Source of the DNA: Spinacia oleracea | Taxonomy: Eukaryota; Streptophyta; Magnoliopsida; Caryophyllales; Amaranthaceae | Assembly: GCF_020520425.1 (NCBI RefSeq) | Contig: NC_079492.1 | Span: 139,690,361-139,754,360 of the forward strand | Direction: 5' to 3' | DNA: 64,000 nucleotides | Shown: positions 27,970 through 56,715 of the stretch, piece by piece | Layout: the number at the start of each line of letters is the position of its first letter | Position numbering within the stretch: the first letter of the stretch is position 1 | Notes under the pieces: generated by a model | Database searches by the model: none | Seen by the model: the letters and a program-made list of their open reading frames with translations, nothing else | Told to the model about the DNA's origin: nothing | Program-made: the position numbers and the translations under genes

Positions 27970-28137
27970 TCACTTTCTTCTTTTGCTTGCAATATATTTG
28001 TTTAACCACATGCACTCCTCCGCCCAATCGAGATGCAACAAATAACCAACCGTATACGAATGTTCAGGATTAAAAGCTCTGTTTCCGAAACATGAAAATA
28101 CTTTTTCCATCACTCGATTACGTCCATTAGGCTGCAT
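27970..28137 (-). CDS. 55-codon open frame of unknown function (possible terminal exon)
   Basis: The minus strand is open from ATG 28137 to TGA 27970. It has a protein-like composition: HSYTVGYLLHLDWAEECMWL followed by NKYIASKRRK, with a basic C-terminus. Just upstream, TTTTTTAACATTCATGCAG resembles a splice acceptor, so it could be a last exon rather than a complete gene. I do not recognise the family. No other exon was found nearby. It could also be transposon-derived. Confidence 0.35.
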   Translation of the reverse strand: MQPNGRNRVMEKVFSCFGNRAFNPEHSYTVGYLLHLDWAEECMWLNKYIASKRRK

Positions 28138-28506
28138 GAATGTTAAAAAATATATTAAGATGTAAAAACAACATGATCGAGTTAATTATAAAAAAAAATT
28201 ATCTTGTTAGAGTATTAGATTGAAACCTGTTGAAAACTGATTTTATTTCAGTAGCTAAACAACCTAATTTAAATATTTTATTTTGTTTCCTTTTTCTTTT
28301 CTGCTAAAACAAAAATTTCAATTTAAAATAAAATAAAAAGGCAAATGAATTAGTAAATTAAAGTAAATATTTTATTTTGATGCTTTTTATTTTTATTTTC
28401 CGCTAAAATAAAAGTCTATTCATTTTCGTTTTAATAAAGTTCGAAGAACGGACCTGTAATCAAACATAACTTGTCAAGTTAATAAGAGATAGGGTCTTTT
28501 CGGAGA

Positions 28507-28811
28507 ATGGGCCGGCCCATTTCGTTCGGATATGTTGACAATAGGGTCTTTTCTTTCCAAATTCTAACCCTAATTTATTTTTGTTGCTCCTTTCTCTCTC
28601 ATTCTTATCTGCCGCTCTCCTCTCTCTCCTGAACATATTAGATTTTTGTTTCTCTTGCTTGCTATCACTCCGTTCTCTCTCCTCATTGCTACTTTCCTTC
28701 ATTTCTCTCCTCAGAAAATGGTTTCTCATATTATCCCTCCTTTTCTCTCTCCTCTTTCCAACTATTTTAAGTTTTAACATCTTAGAAATTAAAAATGGCG
28801 AAAACCTTCAG
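28507..28811 (+). promoter_or_regulatory. Orphan housekeeping-type promoter, leader and start codon
   Basis: The palindrome ATGGGCCGGCCCAT (28507-28520) contains two overlapping site II (GGCCCA/TGGGCC) elements. It is followed by a telo-box TAACCCTAA (28565-28573), a long CT-rich leader and ATGGCGAAAACC at 28795. This combination is typical of ribosomal-protein and other growth-related plant genes. The frame runs only MAKTFRNR before it enters the primer-binding site and LTR of the Gypsy element. Either a gene was cut off here by the element, or a promoter fragment was carried along with it. Confidence 0.5.
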
Positions 28812-28820
28812 AAACCGTTT

Positions 28821-28837
28821 CCCCGGCAACGGCGCCA
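28821..28837 (-). promoter_or_regulatory. tRNA-Asp-type primer-binding site next to the truncated LTR copy
   Basis: TGGCGCCGTTGCCGGGG on the minus strand is complementary to the 3' end of plant tRNA-Asp. It follows the LTR end by five bases, as in the intact 5' end of the element at 37670-37686. A primer-binding site here is unexpected for a 3' LTR. Confidence 0.85.
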
Positions 28838-28842
28838 AAATT

Positions 28843-29763
28843 TGACAGGCTAAATCGCACTCCTATCAAAGATAAACCTAACGTTCACCAACTAAAAATA
28901 TAGTAAGGGAAGCAGGGATCGTATCCACAGGGAAACAGTGTTCTTTCTACTATTAATTAACTAATCTAGACTACTGGTAACAAAGAGTTGGATTGGTTTG
29001 TACGTATATTAAACTAAGGCAAATAATCAAACTAGAATATTACAATATTAAGGAAATCTAGGGCAGCGGTTCACCATAAACACAGACCGGGATTGGACAA
29101 CAGACAATAACAATCAATTAACAATCATAACTAGGAAATCATGCATCTCTCGAATCTTATGAATTCCTTAGGATAGAACAACTAGCGGGCTCTCGCTACG
29201 TACTAGAAATAATTCCTATCTAATAGCCACAGACCAAAAACATCAGATTTATACCTCTCGGCGCATAATCTAAGGTTAATCAAACTCAAATCAAAATAGT
29301 CCGGCCGAACAGAATTGACGAGCAATAATAATAAGCTATAGAAATTATAATCAATCAACCAAATATCATGTCCACGTATAATCCCAATCATGCATTCAAG
29401 GATCCCCTAAACCCTAGAAATTAAACTACTCACTCATGATAATAAATAACAAAGCAATTAACATAATAGAAAACATGATTAAAGAAATAAACTGAATTAG
29501 AACAAGAAGCAATACCTAATTGAAGAACAATGAATAATGAAAGCTGGAATTTTTGATTGAAAATAAAACTAAGTGTTGGAACCAATTTGAGAGAATAATA
29601 AGCTAAGAAAATAAACTAAGGTTAAAAACTAATAAAAAAGGTGTCACTAAAAATATAAGGGGCTAGTATTTATAGTTTGCCCAAAATCGGAAATAAAAAC
29701 TCGCGAAATATGCTGGAGGTTGGCGTCGCCCGATCGGGCAATGTGCTCGATAGTCGGCCCGAT
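28843..29763 (-). repeat. Truncated Gypsy LTR (copy B)
   Basis: The sequence is almost identical to 37692-38612. I see only two differences over about 920 bp: C/T near 29305 versus 38155, and T/A near 29631 versus 38482. It keeps the LTR terminus (TGACAGG on the plus strand), the TATA box at 29667-29674 and one GCCCGATCGGGC palindrome (29728-29739). It breaks off inside the palindrome region, at about 29763, into Copia sequence. Confidence 0.9.
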
Positions 29764-30430
29764 TGGTTCAATAATGTATGCTATGATATGTACACGCCCG
29801 GATGTTGCGTACGCACTCAGTGCTACGAGCAGATACCAGTCAGACCCAGGAGAGGCGCATTGGACTGCTGCCAAGAATATTCTGAAGTACCTGAAAAGGC
29901 ACAAAGATGACTTCCTGGTCTATGGTGGAGTTGATGAATTAATTGTTAAAGGCTATACGGACGCAAGTTTCCAAACCGACAGAGATGATTTCAGATCACA
30001 GTCTGGGTTTGTCTTCTGCCTCAATGGGGGTGCAGTAAGCTAGAAAAGTGCTAAGCAAAGCACCATTGCGGATTCTACAACTGAAGCGGAGTACATTGCT
30101 GCACATGAAGCAGCAAAGGAAGCTATATGGCTAAGGAAGTTCATAGGTGAACTTGGTGTAGTCCCCTCCATTAAAGGACCAATAGCCCTGTATTGTGATA
30201 ATAACGGAGCTATTGCACAGGCAAAGGAGCCTAGACACCACCAGAGAGTCAAGCATGTACTTCGTAGATTTCACCTTCTACGAGAGTTCGTTGAAAGAAA
30301 AGAAGTCGAGATAAACAAGATTGGAACTGATGACAACATATCAGATCCATTGACTAAACCTCTGCCGCAGGCGAAGCACAACTCGCACACTGCAGCTATG
30401 GGAATCAAGCATATTGGAGAATGGCTTTGA
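29764..30430 (+). pseudogene. Copia pol C-terminus (end of RT plus RNase H), one nonsense mutation
   Basis: The frame encodes the end of the Copia reverse transcriptase and the RNase H domain, with recognisable motifs: CTRPDVAYAL, YTDASFQTDRDDFRSQSGFV, ADSTTEAEYIAAHEA, LYCDNNGAIAQA and ISDPLTKPL. At about 30041 a TAG replaces the Trp usual in this position (AVS-stop-KSAKQS). The frame has no start and is cut off at its 5' end by the junction with the Gypsy LTR. Confidence 0.9.
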
Positions 30431-31609
30431 TATCCCTGTTTAATGTTTTAAAGTTTTAGAGTTTAAATCTTTGTAAAACATTATTGGTTAATCATTCACA
30501 ATAAATGAAAAGAATTCATTTTTCCATTTAATTTGTGGTTTATTAAATGATGAGTCCCTTCAATTTGACGATATATTCAAGATAGACTGTCAGGACCAGT
30601 CCTGTGACTAAGAAATGTCTATCAAGTGAACTTGAATGTCAAAGGTTGAAAATGGTCCCTAGTCGGAGTTTTCTATAAAATTGGACGCATAGAAAACGTT
30701 AGACGATTAGAATGCAAGATGACTAGTAGTTCTGTTTCTTGAACTATGTGGACATGGCAATGTCATAATCATTTGCATAGATACTTACTTTGGGAAGACT
30801 AGTATCGGACAAGACCTATGAAACTTTACTGTAAGAGATGAAAATCTGTCATAAGTAAATTTCATTAAAATTATTAGACACTAAATCCTCAATACATGAG
30901 TGATTTGAGATTACTTGTTTGAGAACTGGTTGCTTTGACGTTGACCAACCGTCGCACCGTAAAAGGAGGCTATAAAGGCAACGCTCAGGTAATCACCTAT
31001 CAAACGAAGTCTAATCTCAAGATTGCAAGATTGGGATTGTCCTCCCATAAATCGGGATGAGATGCTTAAAAGTTGTACAAGGCCACTCGGAGAGCTAGAA
31101 ACTGTGAAATGCATGGCCGTGCTCGGATGAATCATAGGCTATGATTATCTGTTTATTTGATCAGTTGAACTCTGAAACCGAGGAACACCTCTGGACATAA
31201 TAAGGATGACAACTCTTACCTTATGTTCAAGAGCAACCATCGAGCGACAAAGGAATTAGGAAATGCACACTTGTCCCTAAGGACAAGTGGGAGACTGAAG
31301 GAAATAATGCCCTTGGTCCAAGTATGCATTCTATGTTAAGTCTAATAAGTGCGGTTCAGTATTAATTAACAAGTTAATAATTCAGTAAGATCAAGTGAGA
31401 TGAATGCCTAGCTAGAGGCCGCTTCAGTTCAAGTGGAATTAATGATATTAATCCACAGCTTACTCTTGACTGAACCCGTAGGGTCACACAAATAGTACGT
31501 AAACGGATCAAGTATTTAATGGCATTAAATACTCCATCTATGGATATTCGGAATCGACGGATCTTGGTTTCAGTGGGAGCTGAGATCGTCACAGGCAAGA
31601 AATGAATAC

Positions 31610-31930
31610 TCCGGAAATGATGATATTGCCGGAAACGGAAATATGGATCGTATCGGAAATATAAATATTATCCAAGTCGTAGATGTTGCCGGAAACGGAA
31701 ACATGGTACGTATCAGAAAATATTATCGGAAATGGAAATATTGCCGGAATCGGAAATATTGCCGGAAACGGAAAAATTGTCAGAAACGGAAATATTATCG
31801 GAATCGGAAAATAATTCCGGAAACGGAAATATTAAATATTTGTTCGAAACGGAAATTAATTCCGGAATCGGAAATATTAAATGTTCTTCGTATCGGAAAA
31901 GAATTCCGGAATCGGGAATTTAATCGGAAG
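31610..31930 (+). repeat. Minisatellite in Copia LTR (GCCGGAAACGGAAATATT-type unit)
   Basis: About fifteen degenerate units of roughly 16-26 bp share the core GGAAACGGAAATATT or GGAATCGGAAATATT. Array position upstream of the LTR TATA box suggests a U3 enhancer-like repeat. Open frames read through it are repeat artefacts. Confidence 0.85.
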
Positions 31931-32290
31931 CGTATCGTACGAATTAGCATCGGACGAGGCCCGCTAGACGAAGGCCCAGCACGAAGCCAGGCCATCGCCC
32001 AGCGAGCCGCACGCAGCAACGCACGCCTCGACCAGGCCCAGCGCAAGGCCAGGCCCAGCCAAGGGCGCGCGCGCGCACGCAGCACCGCACATGGGTTGTG
32101 CGCTTGTCGCAAGGCCTGCGAAGGTGCACGGCTTGTACGATGCGTGTGCGGGAAATCCTAATTCTATTAGGATTCATGCGAAGATTAAAATCCTAATCTT
32201 ATTAGATTTGCTTTGTTATTTAGAGTCCTAATAAAGTTCTAATTAACAAATCCACATCCTAGTAGGATTACAATTCCTTTTCCATACCTC

Positions 32291-32298
32291 TATAAATA
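32291..32298 (+). promoter_or_regulatory. TATA box of Copia LTR
   Basis: TATAAATA, followed by AGGGCC, lies in the downstream third of the LTR on the same strand as the Copia coding sequence, the expected place for the U3 promoter. Confidence 0.6.
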
Positions 32299-32668
32299 AG
32301 GGCCTAGGGTCATTATTTATACACAAGTTTTCAAGTATTCAAAGCTAGGATTTTTAAGCAGAAAAATCAGCCATAACTCTTGCCCATTTAGCCGAAAATA
32401 AGTAGTACCTTAAAGGCGATTCTAGTTGGTCAATCTTAAGGCGGATCCGGACGTGCTGTGGACTATCTACGGAGGGACGACACTTGGAGTCTTAAAGACT
32501 TGTTCTTGTTCGGTTCGGGCGCAGCTAGGGAAGGCACGCAACAAAGAGTATGCATCTAAACTATGTTAAATGATTATGTGTAAATAATATGTTTTCCTGG
32601 CTTTATGGTTTTTCCGCATGATTTATGAATTGTCATATGTATCATAACCTAACAAAACACACATATCA

Positions 32669-32684
32669 AACTCCCCCAAGCTAG
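32669..32684 (-). promoter_or_regulatory. Gypsy polypurine tract
   Basis: On the minus strand AGCTTGGGGGAGTT immediately precedes TGATATGTGTGTTT, which is the first 14 bp of the Gypsy LTR (compare the 5' LTR start at 39151). This fixes the 3' LTR start and shows that the Copia element inserted 14-15 bp into it. A similar tract (GCTTGGGGGGTG) is at about 34185-34196. Confidence 0.75.
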
Positions 32685-35015
32685 ATCCTTGCTTGTCCCT
32701 AAGCAAGAAAATCATCGATGAATACAAGACCAACTTCACCCCCACCATATTTCAAAATGAAAAACATAATTCAAGGCAAAATCTAACGAGCATGCATCAA
32801 TGTCAACCAATCAAATCCACCCAACCACAAATCCTCCCTAACAATCGTCACGCAAAGCGAACCACAAGTGCACAATGGAATTCAAGACTAGTGCTCACAC
32901 ACTCATCACTCATTTATGTGGCGGGTAAAAGATGTACCCGTTCGCTCTCCTCCCAACATATAAGTGAACAATGCCCTCCCAAACTCACAACACTCGTGTG
33001 TCTAGAAAAACATACACTCAACCTAGTAGTCGACTTGAAATGTGTCATGTCATAACTTGCATTGATAAACAACTATTTTCACATAAGTACGACTCTATGC
33101 ACAAAGGTCGGAAGGTCTTCAAAGCTTGTAATGTTAGGCTTAGGTAAGGGTGCGGTAAATTTGGGTATAATGTGAGCTTTAAAGCCTTGGCTTTGGGGAG
33201 CATAAATCCTAAAAACAACCGTGATCAATCAATATAATGACCCTAATCTCCCACTCAACACATGACAAAACAACAAATAGCCAACACCATACTTTCTTGC
33301 CTTTTTTCACAATTGTAACCAATCACTCATAAGGATATGAATTTGCAGAACTTGATTGAAACAACACTTTGAACTTTTTATGAGAGTAATAGATTTTTCT
33401 CTTTCTTTTCTTTTTCAATCTCTCTTTTTTTTTCTTTTTTCTTTTTTAGCAACCTTCACATTTGTTTTGTTCTTTCATCTCTTTTCATTTTCAACTCATT
33501 TTCAACAACAAACATGATAAGACGAACTCCATTTTCAATACCCACTTTGTGCTCAAAATGTAGCACACTACAACTCCCTCACCTCACTACTATTATCTCC
33601 CCGAAGCTAGGCTTGGGACTAGTAACCAATGGGGTTTTTCATTGGCTTGTAATATGGATAGTCACCGAATAAAAGGGCACAAGCAACAACATGGGTAGAA
33701 AAGGAGGGGACAAATGTATCTAATTTCATCTGAAGGCTACCTAAATAGAAAAATGCCTTCGTCCTCCACAATGTGCATGAATATGAGTCATAAAACACTA
33801 CTAATAGTTGCACATCAATACTCAAAATCAATGACACACCAGGAAGCTATCACACATCCTAACCAAATTAACTAGTCAAGCACCAAGTCCACAAATAGTT
33901 AGTCGGAGTTGACTCATGTTAAGGCATCAAAGCAATCGAATATCAAATCATGGCTAACACATCTACATTGCCCATCATCAAATACCAAGAATCAAAACAA
34001 TTTTCGTTCAAGGGGCACAGGGAAGCATGATATTGTATTCATCGGAACGTATTTTTGTATTTTTTTTTTTCAAAGCAATAAACTACTCTAGAAAACATTA
34101 AACACACCAAAATAAACACACAAAAATAAGTAAATGCAAAAATAAAAGGAAAAACATACCTAATATGTACAAGTGAGTGAAACACCCCCCAAGCTAAATC
34201 AGACAATGTCCTCATTGGCTCAAGGGGTATCATGAGGAAAGTGAGCAACCCGTGGCTTATTTGTCGCTGAGTCGCAAATCGCCCGATCGGGCAGCAGATC
34301 GCCCGATCGGGCGAATTTCGTACCTTTTCGTTGAATCTGTGCGCGCCCGATCGGGCGCACCTCGCCCAATCCGGATTGGGCGAAACGCAATGCCTTGTTT
34401 TATTGACTTTTCTCAGCCCAAAATCCTTCCTTGACCTTTCTACGACGTCATCATCAACCGCCCGATCGGGCGGAATTTCGCCCGATCGGGCATTTCACTC
34501 GCCTTTTGTGTCGATCGGGCCACTTTCGCCCGGTTGGGCAATTTCCCAAATTTTTCTTTGTATCGACACGCGCCCGATCGGGCGCTCTTCGCCCGATCCG
34601 GGTCGGGCGAAATGCAAGCTACTCCGTTTGGCTTTGATTCAACTTTTTCGAGCTTGGGGCCTTAGACCTGCATAACATTAAACACCAAAACCGTAAAATA
34701 CACTCATCTCGCCTCTCCAATACCAAGGACTACACTGAATCACACACTTGATAAAAAATTATACTAAAACACACAAAACGAAAGCCTAAAGTACACTACG
34801 GAAAGCAATAAATGGATAGTTAAGTACTCATCCCCTATTAGATTGGTGTAATGTCCCCATTACACAATCTCAGTTTATGCACAGACAACGAAAGGAAGGG
34901 GATAAGAGCCACGACAACTCATCGAATGGGGGCACCAAAGATGGTGCCATCTGGTGTCAAATCAATTGCCTTGGATGAGCTATGTGGCGCGGGGGGTGAC
35001 AGACCACGACCCCGA
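32685..35015 (-). other. Non-coding interior of the Gypsy element
   Basis: In an autonomous element this region would hold reverse transcriptase, RNase H and integrase. None is recognisable in any frame. It has a TC-rich block near 33395-33450 and the palindrome array at 34281-34609. The absence of pol makes this a gag-protease-only, non-autonomous element. Confidence 0.75.
34281..34609. repeat. Array of GCCCGATCGGGC palindromes (Gypsy interior)
   Basis: Exact 12-bp palindromes are at 34281, 34301, 34345, 34460, 34480 and 34572. Longer 20-bp forms are CGCCCAATCCGGATTGGGCG (34363-34382, a perfect palindrome) and a one-mismatch version (34590-34609). They come in pairs 8-10 bp apart. Parts of the array match, in opposite orientation, the array in the LTR at 38577-38710; for example a palindrome, GAAATTCC, a palindrome and GGTTG are identical. 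Confidence 0.95.
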
Positions 35016-35864
35016 TCATGAATGCGATGCCCACCGTTCACCGAACTTTCGGGTCTCAACATCATCAAATCGTGCTTCCCTTTGAACCCATGCCGAAGAG
35101 TTCATACTCCGATTACCTCCACCTGCAAAACAATTTGAAACATGCTCTTTTTCCGAAGGATTGTTGGAGTTAGTATGAGTCAATTTAGTATTAAAATAAT
35201 CATTAGAAAAATTGACTCCAAAACATGACTCCTCTACCATAGGGCTCTTAGCAACATGGGTTAAATTGAAAGTAACCTTGTCATCCCCCACATTTAAGGT
35301 CAGCTTGCCATTCTTGACATCTATGATTGCCCCCGCAGTGTGTAGGAAAGGTCGACCTAAAATAATAGGAATCTGCCTGTCCTCTTCCATGTCCAACACA
35401 ACAAAATCAACAGGGATAAAAAATTTACCTACTCTAACAGGCACATCTTCTAGAACACCTAGGGGGTATTTTACAGATCTATCAGCCATTTGCAGAGTTA
35501 TGTTGGTAACTTTTAAATCACCCATGTTCAACTTAGTACATACAGACAAGGGCATGACACTAACACTGGCACCTAAATCACATAAGGCTTTGTCAATAAA
35601 AAGGTTGCCAATATTACACGGGATTGAGAAACTCCGAGGGTCCTTCAACTTGGGTGGAGACTTATTCTGTAGTAAGGCACTACATTCTTCAGTAAATGCA
35701 ACAGTCTCCACCTCACTAAATGCTCTCTTCCTAGTCAAGATGTCTTTCATGTATTTAGCATATGCAGGTACTTGAGTAATTAATTCAGTGAAAGGGACCG
35801 TTACCTGCAGATTCTTTACCACTTCTAAGAACTTACCAAACTGCTTGTCTAGCTTGTTCTTTAG
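35016..35864 (-). pseudogene. Gypsy aspartic protease region
   Basis: This is in frame with gag after a TAG at 35865-35867. The retropepsin-like active-site segment reads CDLGASVSVMPLSVCTKL; the canonical D-T/S-G is D-L-G here, as is common in Athila/Tat-type plant elements. Further on, VDFVVLDMEEDRQIPIILGR and PFLHTAGAIIDV are typical of the C-terminal half of the protease fold. The N-terminal part KLDKQFGKFLEVVKNL with YAKYMKDILTRKR is the usual linker in this group. The frame ends at 35016 with no reverse transcriptase following. Confidence 0.8.
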
Positions 35865-35867
35865 CTA

Positions 35868-36302
35868 ACGATGAGGGAAGGGAAGTTTGATAGGTGGAAC
35901 TTGTATCTCAACTTTCTTCTCAACCCTTGTGTCAGCTTCCTTATCCTTGACCACCTTCTCACTTTCTCTTGGCACAGCACCACTAACAGATACTTCAACC
36001 CCTTCCTCTATAGTCATAGGTGGCCCATCATACTCATATCCACTCCGCAAAGTGACAGCATTTGCAGACTCTCTGGTCACAGGCTGTGAAGGGAGTTGAC
36101 CCTTCGGTCTCTCTGCAAGAGCAGTAGCCATTTGTGCCAACTGTTTATCCATGATCTTGTTATGAGCAGTGATGGCATCGATTTTAGCATCCTTTTCGCT
36201 CAGAGATCTCTGCAATTCCAACATCATATTCATCATCTCTACAAGCATGGGATCAGGTTGTGTGGGTTGAGGTTGTGGAGGAAAACCAGGTGGTCCACTA
36301 GG
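35868..36302 (-). pseudogene. Gypsy gag-protease linker between two TAG stops
   Basis: The segment is in the same frame as gag upstream and protease downstream, bounded by TAG at 36303-36305 and at 35865-35867. It contains LELQRSLSEKDAKIDAITAH, a coiled-coil-like stretch, and TLRSGYEYDGPP, a conserved linker motif in this Gypsy group. Both stops could each come from one CAG (Gln) codon by C-to-T change on the coding strand. Confidence 0.75.
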
Positions 36303-37559
36303 CTACGGGTTGTAGTTACTCCGCGGTTGGTAGGGTTGCTGTGGTGGTGGTTGGTAAGGTTGTTGTGGTGGTGGAGGGTGTTGAATCTGGTGGGGGTTCT
36401 GAACATTAGTACTCCTATATGATAATAGGGGGTTGTTTTTATACCCCTCATTGTATGAGGTGGAGTACGGATTGTTCTGCTTGTAGGCCTGGAATGCATT
36501 GCATTGTTCAATAGAGCTCTTACATTCCGGTGCATAATGACCTGGCATCCCACAACGATTACAGACATTGGCCAACTGAGCACTCATTGCGGCGACACTA
36601 GCTTGTTGGGTGGCTTGGGAAGATGCGATCTGTATATTGTCCAGCTTGTGATGTAGGGCAGTTAGCTGAGCAGTAAGCTGTTCAATAGAGTTCATCTCAT
36701 GCTTAACACCACGATCGGTAAAACCTCTAGGATTCCCATATTGGGCACTATGGATGGCTATCTCCTCAATCACCTCTAAAGCTCTAGGCACCTCCAGTTG
36801 CATAAATCTTCCACTGGCAGCTGAATCCAAAAGACACCTAGACTCATTACCCAGACCATTATAGAACTGTTGAACCAGGAACCAGTCCTCCAAACCATGG
36901 TGTGGGCACTCTCTTTGCAAGTCCTTGAATCTTTCCCAAACCTCGAACAAACTCTCATCTGCTTGTTGAGAGATACCTAATATCTGTCCCCTTAGACGAG
37001 CTGTCTTCTCAGGTGGGGAATATTTAACATAGAATGCAAGGGCCAAAGAATTCCAATCGGTGATTTTCATAGCTGCGCGGTTGAGACTGTTAATCCATAG
37101 CTTGGCCTTCCCACTCAATGAAAATGGAAAGAGTATCTCCATAGTCTGCTCCGGTGTTAAATTCTTCTGCTTAATGGTGGCACAATACTGAATGAAAGAC
37201 TGAATATGGAGATTGGGATCTTCACCCTTTTCCCCACCGAATTGGTGTCTCTCGATCATGTTTATCAGCTGGGGTTCAATCTTGAAATTCTCGACCGCAA
37301 TGGAAGGCATGATTTCCTTGGGAAGCATAGACAGACTTGGTTTAGAATAGTCTGTAAGCCTTGGCACAAGTGGGGGTGGTGGTGCTTGGTCACCCATCTC
37401 TGAATCTGTATGGAATAGATTGCTAATCAGATAGTCGGATTCAGAGTCAGAATAGTCTCTCAACTGTTCAACGAATCTACGCCGTCTACGAAAGGTCCGT
37501 TCAGGTTCAAGATCGAACGAAGTCAGATCGCTGGTATGGACAGTCCTGGGCATAAACAA
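36303..37559 (-). CDS. Gypsy (Athila/Tat-like) gag polyprotein
   Basis: The 418-codon frame contains the plant retrotransposon gag domain (AKLWINSLNRAAMKITDW, WERFKDLQRECPHHGLEDWF, QFYNGLG) and a CCHC zinc knuckle CNRCGMPGHYAPEC at residues 333-346, which binds RNA during packaging. A Pro/Gln-rich tail follows. It begins about 110 bp after the primer-binding site. The frame is intact up to the TAG at 36303-36305; protease follows in the same frame. It forms virus-like particles in related elements; activity here is unknown. Confidence 0.85.
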   Translation of the reverse strand: MFMPRTVHTSDLTSFDLEPERTFRRRRRFVEQLRDYSDSESDYLISNLFHTDSEMGDQAPPPPLVPRLTDYSKPSLSMLPKEIMPSIAVENFKIEPQLINMIERHQFGGEKGEDPNLHIQSFIQYCATIKQKNLTPEQTMEILFPFSLSGKAKLWINSLNRAAMKITDWNSLALAFYVKYSPPEKTARLRGQILGISQQADESLFEVWERFKDLQRECPHHGLEDWFLVQQFYNGLGNESRCLLDSAASGRFMQLEVPRALEVIEEIAIHSAQYGNPRGFTDRGVKHEMNSIEQLTAQLTALHHKLDNIQIASSQATQQASVAAMSAQLANVCNRCGMPGHYAPECKSSIEQCNAFQAYKQNNPYSTSYNEGYKNNPLLSYRSTNVQNPHQIQHPPPPQQPYQPPPQQPYQPRSNYNP

Positions 37560-37669
37560 GCAAGAACTAGAAAATAGTCGTGAGATCCGGTCTCAAGGAA
37601 CGGGAGTCCCTTGAGAAGTGACAAACAATAATCTAGAAAAACAATTAATAACAGAAAATAAAACCGTTT

Positions 37670-37686
37670 CCCCGGCAACGGCGCCA
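37670..37686 (-). promoter_or_regulatory. Gypsy primer-binding site (tRNA-Asp type)
   Basis: TGGCGCCGTTGCCGGGG on the minus strand, five bases after the 5' LTR end at 37692, is complementary to the 3' terminus of plant tRNA-Asp. It is the start of minus-strand DNA synthesis. Confidence 0.88.
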
Positions 37687-38515
37687 AAATTTGACAGGCT
37701 AAATCGCACTCCTATCAAAGATAAACCTAACGTTCACCAACTAAAAATATAGTAAGGGAAGCAGGGATCGTATCCACAGGGAAACAGTGTTCTTTCTACT
37801 ATTAATTAACTAATCTAGACTACTGGTAACAAAGAGTTGGATTGGTTTGTACGTATATTAAACTAAGGCAAATAATCAAACTAGAATATTACAATATTAA
37901 GGAAATCTAGGGCAGCGGTTCACCATAAACACAGACCGGGATTGGACAACAGACAATAACAATCAATTAACAATCATAACTAGGAAATCATGCATCTCTC
38001 GAATCTTATGAATTCCTTAGGATAGAACAACTAGCGGGCTCTCGCTACGTACTAGAAATAATTCCTATCTAATAGCCACAGACCAAAAACATCAGATTTA
38101 TACCTCTCGGCGCATAATCTAAGGTTAATCAAACTCAAATCAAAATAGTCCGGCTGAACAGAATTGACGAGCAATAATAATAAGCTATAGAAATTATAAT
38201 CAATCAACCAAATATCATGTCCACGTATAATCCCAATCATGCATTCAAGGATCCCCTAAACCCTAGAAATTAAACTACTCACTCATGATAATAAATAACA
38301 AAGCAATTAACATAATAGAAAACATGATTAAAGAAATAAACTGAATTAGAACAAGAAGCAATACCTAATTGAAGAACAATGAATAATGAAAGCTGGAATT
38401 TTTGATTGAAAATAAAACTAAGTGTTGGAACCAATTTGAGAGAATAATAAGCTAAGAAAATAAACTAAGGTTAAAAACTAAAAAAAAAGGTGTCACTAAA
38501 AATATAAGGGGCTAG

Positions 38516-38523
38516 TATTTATA
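38516..38523 (-). promoter_or_regulatory. TATA box of Gypsy LTR
   Basis: TATAAATA on the minus strand, followed by CTAGCCCC, is within the LTR and downstream of the palindromes, consistent with a U3 promoter. Confidence 0.6.
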
Positions 38524-38576
38524 GTTTGCCCAAAATCGGAAATAAAAACTCGCGAAATATGCTGGAGGTTGGCGTC

Positions 38577-38710
38577 GCCCGATCGGGCAATGTGCTCGAT
38601 AGTCGGCCCGATCGGGCGAAATTCCGCCCGATCGGGCGGTTGCAAAATGCCCAGAACAACGCCCAGAATGACCGCCCGATCCGGATCGGGCGAAGCCCGC
38701 CCGATCGGGC
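38577..38710. repeat. Palindrome array in Gypsy LTR U3
   Basis: Exact GCCCGATCGGGC at 38577, 38606, 38626 and 38699, and a perfect 20-bp palindrome CGCCCGATCCGGATCGGGCG at 38673-38692. The array lies just upstream of the LTR TATA box, where enhancer sites are expected. Confidence 0.95.
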
Positions 38711-39151
38711 GCGTGTTGAAACTGCACGATCCTCTATCTTCAAAACGTCATATCTCCTTCGTTATTCGTGTGAATTAGGCGAGTGACCACTTGTTGGAAA
38801 GATATTGAAGTCTAGAATCCAACCCAATTCGAATTACATCATTTAGAGTTGTAGAACTTGAATTATGCTTAAAATAGTGGACTATAGTCATTTTTGTACT
38901 TCCTTCGTTATTCGCTTTGCTTCAAAACTCTTCAAACTTAATGTTTGTGCTCTCGAAAGTACATAATTTCTTGTATTGATTCAAATGAGTAGGAAATGCA
39001 CAAAAATATGCTAATTCCTACAATGATGAACCTGAAACTACAAACACACTACAAGGAGCACATTAGTACTAAAAATCGCTCTGAAGAGCTCATTTGAGAT
39101 CAAAAGTACTAAGGGACGGGGGTAAAAACTCTATATAAAACACACATATCA

Positions 39152-42100
39152 CAAGTGTATCCCGTAAATAAATATGGAGGGAATAACATTTTTTACAAAA
39201 TAAATTTTGTATATCTTGGGGGACCGTGCGCGCTATCGCACGGTCCAACAACAAAGATTTTCGAAATAAGAAAGAAGAATGTTGTGCTTGTAAACAGAAA
39301 TGAGAGTACTCGGGATTTCGGTTAGGTGAATTATGAAACTGATTCGGAGAAACTAAAGAGGAGATAAAGAGTGACATTATAACTTTTTAACTAATAAATT
39401 GGATTTATGGGTTTTATATCAGACTTCAGCTTCAATGGTGATATGAAGGCCCAAGTCAAAAGATTGCACGAGGACGAAGAGATAGATCAAGAAAAAGACT
39501 GGGATCGAAATAGAATGAGATTGCATCAACAACAACACCAGTTGACAGATAAAATATTATGGAACGGAGAGAGAAAGCGATGGAGAGAAAATAATGCTAA
39601 AAATCAATATGACAGAAATATTTGACGGAAATAAAATAATTTGAATTGAATGTAAATCAACGCTAGCAACCGGCTCTTTTGTTATTGGACTTGCCCTCTC
39701 TTACACAAAAAAAAATGAAATATGCATCCTGAACCTTGAGCTATTGGACCATTTACTCAAAAAACGAGCTTATGATTCGTGCAATGAACAGATGAAATCA
39801 AATTTGTTTATGCAATATTATTAATTACTCGTAAATGATGTTATAAATATGAAATATTTTTAATAAACTAATATTTGTTATATGTGATTGATAAAATATG
39901 GATACAAATTAAAAATAACGACGTAGTAAAATTTTGAATTTGTGCAAAACAAAATTAGCAACTTAGCCAATTAAGCATGGTGTTATAATATGTACGTAAA
40001 ATACAAATTTAAAACTTGTTATTTTCAATTTATTTAAACTTTTTTTGGGAAAAGTGAAAAAAATAATTATGTTAAAGAAAAATAAGTTGAGTTTAAAAAA
40101 CATAATAGCTAACTGAGTTTTCTAAAAAAAGTTAGTGATAAATTTTTTCACTTTAATACATATTATCCGTTCAAAATCATTACGAATGAATAAAGGTAAA
40201 TTGTTTATCCATCAATTTTTGTTATAATACAAAAGTTAATCAAACATGTCTAAAGTTACCAAAAAAAAAGTTAAAATTTACTCTGGTGTACAATAAATTT
40301 ATTATATACCTTAGGAGTGCAAAACCTTTTGGTCTAAATATGTTTATTCAAAAGAAATTGTTTATACTTTGTACTCGAATTTTATAATTTTTTCCTTATC
40401 TTTTCATTTAATAGTTCCTTAATCTTTTAAAAGGGAAACAAATTTAGGAATTTTTTTGTTTTATTTTATATTATTTGTTTAGGGGTGAGTTTAAGGTGGG
40501 CATGGATACAAAGGTGGGTGAAGGGGCAGAGATGTGTGTTTTTACCCCTCGATATAATGATTGGGAGGGGTGGTTACCGCTCCTATCATAGGTGGTGGGG
40601 ATGGAGATGAGAATTTTAGATGGGTCAGGGTCTGAAGGCTGTGCCTCTCCCCTTCCCGCACCGTCTCGCCTCAAAGTCATCTCTAGTTAAATAAAATAAA
40701 TTGTGGGGGTAAGTTTTAAGTGATCGGATAATGAGGCGAGTTTTAAGTGGGTATGAGTGTATGTCACTTTAAGGTGAACGGTGAATGAGAATAAAATTAT
40801 GATTCACAATGGTGATGAATGAGGATGAAAACAATTTTGTTTATATACCGTTATTAGTTTTAACTTTTTTAATAAATAAGACATCGAAGGGGACAATGAC
40901 AAATGTATCCATCATTAATTTTAATTATGAGAATATCTATAAGATTTATTTTGATGATAATTGTCTACCACTAAAGATTAAATTTATATTTAGATTATAA
41001 ATCACGCATCGCATAGATACTACTGTTGATGCTATAAGCAAACAAGTATAGAACCTTCTGTTGTAGGGTGATCAAGGTTTCCATGGATACTGTCCTTAGG
41101 GACGACCGACCTCCTACGATTGGAGGTCTCGCTCGTGAATGAGTAATTTCTTAAGAAACTACCAATTTGAGCTCAATTAATGTTTAACAAATGCGAAATG
41201 GAACGAGTCAGATTAACAACAAACAAAGACAAGAAATATCATTGATTGATATGTAATAAAAATTAGACAAACATTAAATCACGAGGATGATACCTCCACG
41301 GTTGAATGCTTGGAAAGATGCTCTAGCGCTGGTATACCTCGAGTTTTTCAATATATAAGGAACGCTAAGAACTATGTTATGCAACTGTTAGGCTACAAAG
41401 CCTAGGCTAAGTATGTGCTAAAGCTAAAGGCTAAATAGATTAGAAATGTTATCTGTTGTTGATGTTGTCTTCAATTTTTTTCATTGGTTATATATACTAA
41501 TCCTTTGTTGCGGTTGAAGTACGGTTAAGGAAAGATGGGAGTTATATCCCTTAAACGCCATAGTGGAAGAAAAAACATGTCTTATGTCAGTTCATGGTCA
41601 CGTCATCCACTTCCCCCTTCCTTGACTCGGTCTGTGCTTCTCCTTTATTATGGATGACATTAAGTCTTCACCCTTAGGATTTGCTCGTCTTGGCTTCACT
41701 CATTTTGGGATGACCTTGCTCTTATTTTTTTACCTTTACACTTTAAGTCTGACCATATAATGTGGATCCAAACCTTATTTTTTGAATCCATTTAATCGAT
41801 CGCATACCCTTTTTAACGATAAATTATCTTTTGAGGGCAATTATATAGAGGTTATTAAGTCGTATTTTAAAGTGCTAATTTTGTTAAAAGCTTGTGATTT
41901 TAATGAAAATTATGATTTATATGGAGGTGAATTTTGAAATAAATAAATTAGATGATGAATTAGTATTGAGAGGTAAAAAGGGCGATGGAGTGGAAGATGT
42001 TGAATGGATATATAAATTAATGGTGAATTAATGTTGAATGAGGAATATGAAGTGGCAAAGGCGTTGAAGCTGTAAATTGCATACTTCGTATACCATGCAA

Positions 42101-54915: not shown

Positions 54916-54924
54916 TATAAAAAA

Positions 54925-56706
54925 CGGATTTTTCATGAAATACCCCCGAATTATGGCGTAATTCACCAAATGCCCCTCGACTTTCAGAAATTCACCAAAT
55001 GCCCCTCACAAATGACTTAATACCCAAAATACCCTTACTAATGACGCGCCGTTAGTCCTCCGTTAGCCTAATTTTTAAATTCACCAAATACCCCTATTTT
55101 ATTACTTATTTCATATAATACCCCTATTCTGAAACTTAATTCACCAAATACACATAACTTAAAATTACCCATTTTGATGCTCAGCGGCTAGTTTTTATGT
55201 TTGAAAATTAGCCGTTGCTTATTGTTTGCTTATAAAAACCCCTTTTCTGACTATTTATTGTAGTTTTTCTATTGTTTTGTTAATTTCATATCATTTTTGT
55301 CATGAGTTTTCTTTCAAAATCATCATCCACACCCATGAATCCACATATGTAAGAGTCCCAAACAATTTCTAATATTATGGGAGGAAATTTCCATCTGAGG
55401 CTGCGATACAACACTCAGTAAGTTTCAATTATGATCCAATAAGTTCAGGCCTCATCCAGTAAAGACAATGTACTTTAGCTGAGCAAAAGGCCAAAAAACC
55501 CCATTTTCAAAGGGATCTTATGTAAGTGAAGCTGAAGTAATTCAATCTAAAGCTAACACCTTAATTTTCTTATTGTCCAAATGGTAAAGAAACTAAGAAA
55601 TCAAGTTCAATAACACATACATTTTTATCACAACCTCGATTTCAACTTGGATTCATGATGTGAAAATCTTGAGTTTGGAGGCAAATCTTTGTGCCAAGAT
55701 TCATGTTTTTTCACTGGTTCATGAGCTTTGGAACATACCTTAGTTTCATTTTTTTTTCTTGTTCCCTCAAATCCAAAAATAGACATTTGTCCATAAATCT
55801 GACCATGTCAATAAGACCTAGCTCAAAAGAAAAGTGGGAAAACCTTTATGCCTCGACTGTAAGGTTGAGAGAAAGTTAGGAGATTGAAGAAAGATGTTTG
55901 GAGGCAGTAGAGACAAGAGACAAAAGGGAGTTAACGTTAAATATGTGGCATGGAAGCAATAGAAGCCGAGGTAGCTGGAACATATGCGTTAGAATAAAAT
56001 TAATAAGAGCTTTATTTTTAATCTGTTTGCATATGTTAAAGATATTTCCCATATTGAAAAAGGAATACCTTCCGATTGCGTGGTAAATATAATTAATTGG
56101 TCACATAAAGAATAAGGTACAAAAGAAGTAGCTATTTTCTTGAAGAGTTGCGACGTTTTGAGGTGTTTTTAGGAGTGTTTTCTGTTTTAGTGTTGTACCG
56201 GAGCTTCAGATTGAGTGTTGTATCAGATATTCGGATGTCAAATTTTCTCCCATGATAACAAAATTTATTTGGGACTCTTACATATGTGGACTCATTGGGT
56301 GTGGATGATGATTTTGAAAGAAAACTCATGACAAAAATGATATGAAATTAACAAAATAATAGGAAAACTACAATAAACCGTCAGAAAAAGAGTATTTATA
56401 AGCAAACAATAAGCAACGGCTAATTTTCAAACACAAAAACTAGCCGTTGAGCATCAAAATGAGTAATTTTAAGTTATTGGTATTTGGTGAATTAAGTTTC
56501 TGAATAAGGGTATTTGGTGAAATAAGTATTAAAATAGGGGTATTTGGTGAATTTGAAAATTAGGTTAACGGAGGACTAACGGCGCATTATTAGTAAGGGT
56601 ATTTTGGGTATTAAGTCATTTGTGAGGGGCATTTGGTGAATTTCTGAAAGTCGAGGGGCATTTGGTGAATTACGCCAAAATTCGGGGGTATTTCATGAAA
56701 AATCCG
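54925..56706. mobile_element. Non-autonomous MULE with about 500-bp terminal inverted repeats
   Basis: The left end CGGATTTTTCATGAAATACC is repeated inverted at the right end. The inverted repeats extend about 500 bp (54925 to about 55420 and about 56200 to 56706) with moderate divergence. A perfect 9-bp target duplication TATAAAAAA (54916-54924, 56707-56715) is the Mutator-like hallmark. The roughly 780-bp interior shows no transposase. TIRs contain repeated TTCACCAAATACCCCT words. Confidence 0.9.
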
Positions 56707-56715
56707 TATAAAAAA

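Follow-up and report, generated by a model that had tools for sequence, protein, structure and literature searches.

Palindrome arrays before the TATA box and after pol in an Athila-clade Ty3/gypsy family: a candidate cis-regulatory module

Palindromic repeated motifs are found in the long terminal repeat (LTR) of 13 Sireviruses, upstream of the TATA box, and in nine elements with an ENV gene they lie mostly upstream of that gene. Their clusters coincide with CpG islands, the motif is conserved while its flanks diverge, and its function had not been tested (passages of Bousios et al. 2010, PMC2829016). In maize, Copia LTRs have structure peaks, and Ty3 elements are generally without an obvious peak (excerpt of Martin et al. 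2023, PMC10760457). Athila4 and Calypso carry an extra internal polypurine tract (PMC2829016, in part). In this paper we analyse a 64-kb stretch of Spinacia oleracea contig NC_079492.1 (positions 139,690,361 to 139,754,360; hereafter the window, numbered from its first base). It holds a defective Athila-clade Ty3/gypsy copy, gag-pro only and on the minus strand, with two arrays of a 12-bp palindrome, one in the U3 region of its 5' LTR and one in its interior.

We propose, with a probability of about 0.6, that these arrays form a cis-regulatory module in a large family of Athila-clade Ty3/gypsy elements. Their 12-bp dyad would most likely be where a dimeric DNA-binding protein of the host attaches, and its repeats would act together as an enhancer array. 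The U3 array would drive the LTR promoter directly downstream, and the second array, which lies between integrase and an ATHILA-type open reading frame (ORF) in a gene-retaining relative, would most likely serve the expression of that ORF, possibly through an internal promoter. Gains and losses of units would come from recombination or slippage where palindromes are identical; the same processes would also account for the cassettes that LTR and interior share. We favour a dimeric factor on an enhancer array because the letters of the motif are conserved over its symmetry, because one cluster stands before the TATA box and because the second stands before an extra ORF. Plant GATA-type factors are conceivable candidates for the GATC core.

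The window contains 11 exact copies of the palindrome GCCCGATCGGGC, whereas 100 dinucleotide shuffles yielded none. Six copies start in the interior (34281, 34301, 34345, 34460, 34480 and 34572), four in the LTR (38577, 38606, 38626 and 38699) and one in a truncated LTR (29728), all where the initial annotation had placed them. The 29728 copy is not independent, since it lies in 28812-29766, a 955-base repeat of 37661-38615 that differs from it at 3 places; the distinct copies thus number 10. At no more than 2 mismatches there are 15 sites in the window against 0.28 expected. The dyad has the core CCCG...CGGG with a half-site of about GCCCGAT, and the arrays contain two unit lengths, 12 and 18/20. 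The two 20-bp forms described earlier were also located, and the LTR group does stand just upstream of the TATA box, with 52 bases between the last palindrome and the TATA. The features of the arrays are as follows.

38577..38711, no strand: U3 palindrome array, LTR positions 441-575; five units, four 12-mers and one 18/20-mer
38673..38692, no strand: long form CGCCCGATCCGGATCGGGCG, in U3
38516..38524, minus strand: TATA box CTATAAATA, first base 38524 = LTR position 628, 52 bp downstream of the array
34281..34608, no strand: palindrome array of ten units in the interior, in the opposite orientation to that of the LTR
34363..34382, no strand: long form CGCCCAATCCGGATTGGGCG, a compensated pair, both changes CpG transitions
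34590..34609, no strand: long form CGCCCGATCCGGGTCGGGCG, carrying one single-arm change
34284..34617, plus strand: diverged duplication within the interior array; the two copies (34284-34390, 34512-34617) have an offset of about 228 bp

Of the interior units, six are perfect 12-mers and one is an 18-mer with a symmetric core at 34364; the other three, at 34509, 34528 and 34591, are broken.

The initial annotation would have given up its reading if the array were unique to this one copy, a possibility refuted both by genome counts and by the arrays of relatives. The 14-mer CGCCCGATCGGGCG has 5,719 exact sites in the 894-Mb genome (242 contigs), and its reversed control has 0. Relatives were chosen by exact match to this 14-mer, all within the initial 2.6 Mb of contig C1. 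The 20 array regions compared there comprise 15 arrays of the LTR type and 6 of the interior type, with both types at one locus. The relatives keep the two array sites, in U3 directly before the TATA and after pol. A TATA-like sequence stands at the aligned place in 15/15 LTR copies, and in 9 of the 15 it is exactly CTATAAATA. In 12 further stretches, 14/14 long R/U5 matches had one to five exact palindromes upstream; these stretches were also chosen by the palindrome, so that a selection bias stays, and a 39-bp R/U5 fragment (L061:236-274) could not be judged. Exact patterns for paired palindromes had no match in viral contigs. In a collection of bacterial and archaeal genomes, closely spaced GCCCGATCGGGC pairs were present in 23 contigs, three from Mesorhizobium; all the titles were bacterial, and these matches were set aside as unrelated.

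The palindromes are far less diverged than their surroundings. Across 16 aligned LTR arrays the indicative p-distance was 0.031 in the palindrome slots, against 0.266 in the spacers, 0.264 between array and TATA, 0.297 in the upstream 110 bp and 0.141 in the TATA core. Most of U3 thus differs by at least a quarter among these 16 copies, and the 12-bp word by less than the TATA core. Between two LTR groups, which were split by eye, palindromes differed by 0.032, spacers by 0.370 and the upstream sequence by 0.523. In 7 interior arrays (window copy included) palindromes stood at 0.055 against 0.294 (spacers) and 0.301. With one exact 14-mer masked per row the palindrome values were 0.041 (LTR) and 0.063 (interior), and with every exact 14-mer masked they were 0.049 and 0.081. 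Low divergence of this kind is what a dimeric-regulator site, one of three readings in the initial annotation, leads one to expect; this reading fares best of the three.

That annotation had also suggested that selection or a copying process preserves the dyad symmetry, in which case changes compensated in both arms should be in excess. We counted changes in two array stretches of the window and 21 of relatives (23 in all), allowing at most 3 mismatches per 12-mer and at most 4 per 18-mer; CGCCCAATTGGGCG and CGCCCGATTGGGCG are examples of paired/single variants of the palindrome. Among 145 units, 112 were perfect and 33 changed, with 49 single-arm changes versus 2 compensated pairs, so that selection for symmetry fails by the annotation's own measure, while its reading of a conserved site holds. 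Random placement of the same changes gave a mean of 0.95 pairs (P(>=2)=0.24). The compensated pair in the window consists of two CpG transitions, and one such pair arises by chance in the window with P = 0.20. Single-arm intermediates of both compensated pairs are present in relatives. The scarcity of compensated pairs, together with these intermediates, argues that dyad symmetry is not what is repaired, while the letters persist: the letters are conserved, symmetry as such is not. This favours a sequence-specific dimeric protein site over selection for a hairpin or cruciform.

The position of the second array is clearest in a relative at C1:1.907-1.916 Mb (L067, L068), which retains LTR, gag-pro, reverse transcriptase (RT), integrase, palindrome array and ATHILA ORF, followed by AGTTTGGGGG. 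RT (RVT_1, PF00078) lies in L067:8526-9716, integrase (rve, PF00665) in L068:713-1753 and ATHILA ORF-1 (PF03078, E=1.4e-9) at L068:2905-4155, downstream of pol; an array between integrase and the ATHILA ORF was seen in this one relative. In Ty1/copia Sireviruses integrase precedes RT; the C1:1.91 Mb relative has the gypsy gene order, RT before integrase. The gap between its array and the ORF is CT-rich, and by our own reading an ATG at L068:2689 has a favourable context. In the window no clear plus-strand TATA box was seen, by eye only, after the interior array.

Two cassettes, of 37 bp (100% identity) and 50 bp (90%), are found in both arrays of the window, oppositely oriented, and the spacings 22, 20 and 29 recur in both as well. 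Among the relatives, LTR alignment gaps run from palindrome to palindrome in L044, L046, L052 and L048 (the direction of change not being polarised). We read them as losses between neighbouring units in L044 and L046, as a collapse to one unit in L052 and, in L048, as a fusion whose product is once more fully palindromic; L046 also has an extra unit, and the interior arrays of L045 and L056 show 20-bp unit expansions. These apparent losses and gains of whole units suggest remodelling by recombination. They would also be produced if a recombinogenic palindrome were multiplied and homogenised by slippage, template switching or unequal exchange in reverse transcription, with no regulatory role. 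The near-identical LTR and interior cassettes fit such neutral amplification too, as does one LTR breakpoint, where the remnant 28812-29766 joins Copia-like coding sequence at, or a few bases from, a palindrome centre. Under neutral amplification alone, however, lineages should drift to different motifs, whereas the same letters are found despite a 52% upstream difference between the LTR groups, and the arrays stay at the same two places. Recombination between identical units explains multiplication and likeness within one element, not the same word across diverged groups, and we consider this account unlikely as a full explanation. Within the interior duplication, mismatches fall on 7/54 palindrome positions and 30/70 spacer positions (Fisher P = 3e-4).

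Secondary structure might instead be what is selected, as hairpins or cruciforms serving RNA stability, dimerisation or packaging, or as double-stranded RNA for small-RNA pathways. The predicted folds are strong (z -6.3 for the LTR array, 0/200 shuffles; z -9.2 for the interior array, 0/100). In a scan of 3195 segments of 110 nt, the four with starts at 38561-38621 took ranks 4, 9, 12 and 15, and the sixteen with starts at 34241-34541 took ranks from 8 to 435. In 3/3 folded cassettes with 20-bp spacing a 14-bp stem forms between the two palindromes, and maize Sirevirus palindromes are small-RNA hotspots (PMC10760457, excerpt). Any clustered palindrome folds, however, and in two 22-bp interior cassettes each palindrome folds on itself, so that no one hairpin form is shared. 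The excess of compensated changes that structural selection calls for is absent, as the 2 pairs compare with 0.95 expected and with 49 single-arm changes; the hairpin or cruciform reading of the initial annotation fails on this count. Its packaging or 5'-leader role is a poor fit for the LTR array because that array lies upstream of the TATA, so that the genomic RNA would carry it at the 3' end only. Selection on structure is in our view decidedly improbable. The arrays might also be a CpG-rich methylation or silencing target kept by the host, or an unmethylated CpG-island-like element. Observed/expected CpG is 1.40 in the LTR array and 1.56 in the interior array against 0.64 in the window, and the arrays lie in two of the seven island-like stretches of the window (38481-38830 and 34151-34730). 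Such a CpG density is nevertheless implied by the motif, the CpGs of the arrays persist although methylation should speed their decay, and the non-CpG letters of the motif are conserved as well, which leaves this explanation with very little probability.

Several points weigh against a cis-regulatory module bound by a dimeric protein. Units and slots were defined by similarity, which misses badly decayed units, and masking lessens this bias and does not remove it. Some alignment rows are probably two LTRs of one element and not independent, for which reason the divergence figures are indicative, and homogenisation of units could account for part of the conservation. Helical phasing of the units is not significant (P 0.17 in the LTR, 0.13 in the interior). 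Where LTR and interior share the spacing 29, the spacer letters agree at 3/17, which makes homology uncertain. Between the L068 interior array and the ATHILA ORF, no TATAAA-type box was seen by eye.

The remaining features of the window element are listed below.

37692..39151, minus strand: 5' LTR TGATATGTG...CCTGTCA, 1460 bp, ending 5 bp before the primer binding site (PBS)
37669..37686, minus strand: PBS TGGCGCCGTTGCCGGGGA, 5 bp (AATTT) past the LTR end
36303..37592, minus strand: gag (Retrotrans_gag, Pfam), zinc knuckle under the Pfam cut-off, ending at an in-frame stop
35016..35864, minus strand: aspartic protease region (Pfam)
34186..34195, minus strand: internal polypurine-like AGCTTGGGGG, just after the interior array
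32673..32682, minus strand: terminal polypurine-like AGCTTGGGGG, preceding the 3' LTR stub
32654..32668, minus strand: first 15 bases of the 3' LTR stub, then a Copia-like insertion
28812..29766, minus strand: LTR remainder and PBS, 99.7% identical to 37661-38615

The first 15 bases of the 5' LTR are those of the 3' LTR stub at 32668. The PBS TGGCGCCGTTGCCGGGGA is presumably of the tRNA-Asp type. Analogy with the part of PMC1142308 consulted points to this type, and there Calypso and Diaspora have a tRNA-Asp-type PBS and a 5-bp spacing between LTR and PBS, the same spacing as in the window element. Two in-frame stops lie within gag-pro. Between the protease and 32682 there is one minus-strand ORF of at least 110 aa (34039-34494), which spans the interior array; it has no Pfam match, so the window copy is without RT and integrase. 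No ATHILA ORF-1 was found in the window copy either, this ORF being the one nearby of at least 110 aa, and the 1.5 kb between the two AGCTTGGGGG tracts hold no larger minus-strand ORF. Because RT, integrase and the ATHILA ORF are missing, the interior array adjoins the internal polypurine-like tract. The sequence that interrupts the 3' LTR is, by our own reading, probably a Copia-like insertion, although its two RNase H-like ORFs have no Pfam match. The LTR copy at 28812-29766 is followed by a PBS, unlike a normal 3' LTR, which suggests an LTR-internal-LTR-internal tandem that was truncated later. No viral contig matched the exact pattern of the LTR-PBS junction, and a gag search of the viral contigs gave two pattern matches, neither of which was confirmed.

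Other observations concern the surroundings of the arrays. An Rfam search of 28000-40000 gave no match inside the arrays and one match overall, snoR71 (RF00097, 48.9 bits, cut-off 40) at 36892-36998 on the plus strand, the antisense strand of gag; the Rfam family RF00097 may be retroelement-derived. In the 110-nt scan the most stable predicted RNA structure, with -79.5 kcal/mol at 31961 on the minus strand, belongs to 31901-32100, a GC-rich segment within a stretch read as Copia LTR. The same Copia-like stretch contains degenerate CGGAAATATTNCCGGAAA-like tandem repeats (31651-31923) with nested periods of 18, 36, 45, 54 and 73. An inverted pair of about 495 bp and 92% identity (54924-55417 and 56212-56707) is possibly two short DNA transposon copies or a foldback. 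Elsewhere on C1, at loci L061-L063 (G000:C1:848500-878200), four family LTRs of the same orientation lie 4.55-4.58 kb apart, with a fifth 6.1 kb further; these loci have no gag match and are probably a head-to-tail tandem of non-autonomous elements.

Comparison with described elements, made here with parts of the papers cited, aligns the family with the Athila/Calypso/Diaspora clade in its PBS spacing, its ATHILA ORF-1 (in the relative) and its post-pol coding region (PMC1142308, PMC6317226). Unlike these elements as described, the window copy is without RT and integrase. The word stem 'palindrom' has 0 occurrences in the main text of both papers. Retand elements likewise have family-specific repeats between pol and the 3' LTR, but their arrays were called by a tandem-repeat search and accompany antisense TRP28 ORFs (PMC11963269); in that paper 'palindrom' occurs in one reference title only. 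Among the open-licence PMC papers listed for our searches we found no title or abstract opening on such arrays in Athila or other Ty3/gypsy LTRs, an earlier description being possible, and the literal 12-mer GCCCGATCGGGC did not occur in the literature texts searched.

The maize Sirevirus LTR palindromes (Bousios et al. 2016 via PMC10760457) likewise lie in a cis-region of the LTR that is rich in palindromes and predicted to have strong RNA structure, although the maize Copia motif, CACCGGACNNNGTCCGGTG, is different. As in the Sirevirus passages of PMC2829016, the dyads described here are high-copy and GC-rich, with one cluster before the TATA and a second after pol, before an extra ORF. Where Sireviruses have at least eight dyads per element with the LTR cluster upstream of the TATA, the window element has five LTR and ten interior units. 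The second Sirevirus cluster lies between pol and the ENV ORF, as does that of L068 if the ATHILA ORF, a putative counterpart only, is put in the place of ENV, and the clusters define CpG islands in both (observed/expected 1.40 and 1.56 here). The differences are as clear. The CGG...CCG signature of 12 of the 13 Sireviruses is absent, the core here being CCCG...CGGG; the host is a Ty3/gypsy Athila element with gypsy gene order; the Sirevirus PBS, TATCAGAGC, differs from TGGCGCCGTTGCCGGGGA; and the inverted interior array and two unit lengths (12 and 18/20) are not mentioned in those passages.

We raise as a tentative possibility that Athila and the Sireviruses independently reached a two-promoter design. 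A palindromic enhancer array particular to the family would stand both before the LTR promoter and before the post-pol ORF, and through it one host dimeric factor would switch on the genomic RNA as well as a separate mRNA of the extra ORF. If true, this would explain by what means plant endogenous-retrovirus-like elements express their extra ORF. The layout makes the expression of post-pol ORFs in plant retroelements a testable question, and 5,719 sites of the 14-mer in one genome would be a ready-made handle on the host factor controlling an abundant element family. By analogy, the arrays look like an independent Ty3/gypsy version of the Sirevirus-type layout with a different motif. That two unrelated superfamilies place their arrays at the same two sites speaks for a common constraint and not for a peculiarity of the Sireviruses.

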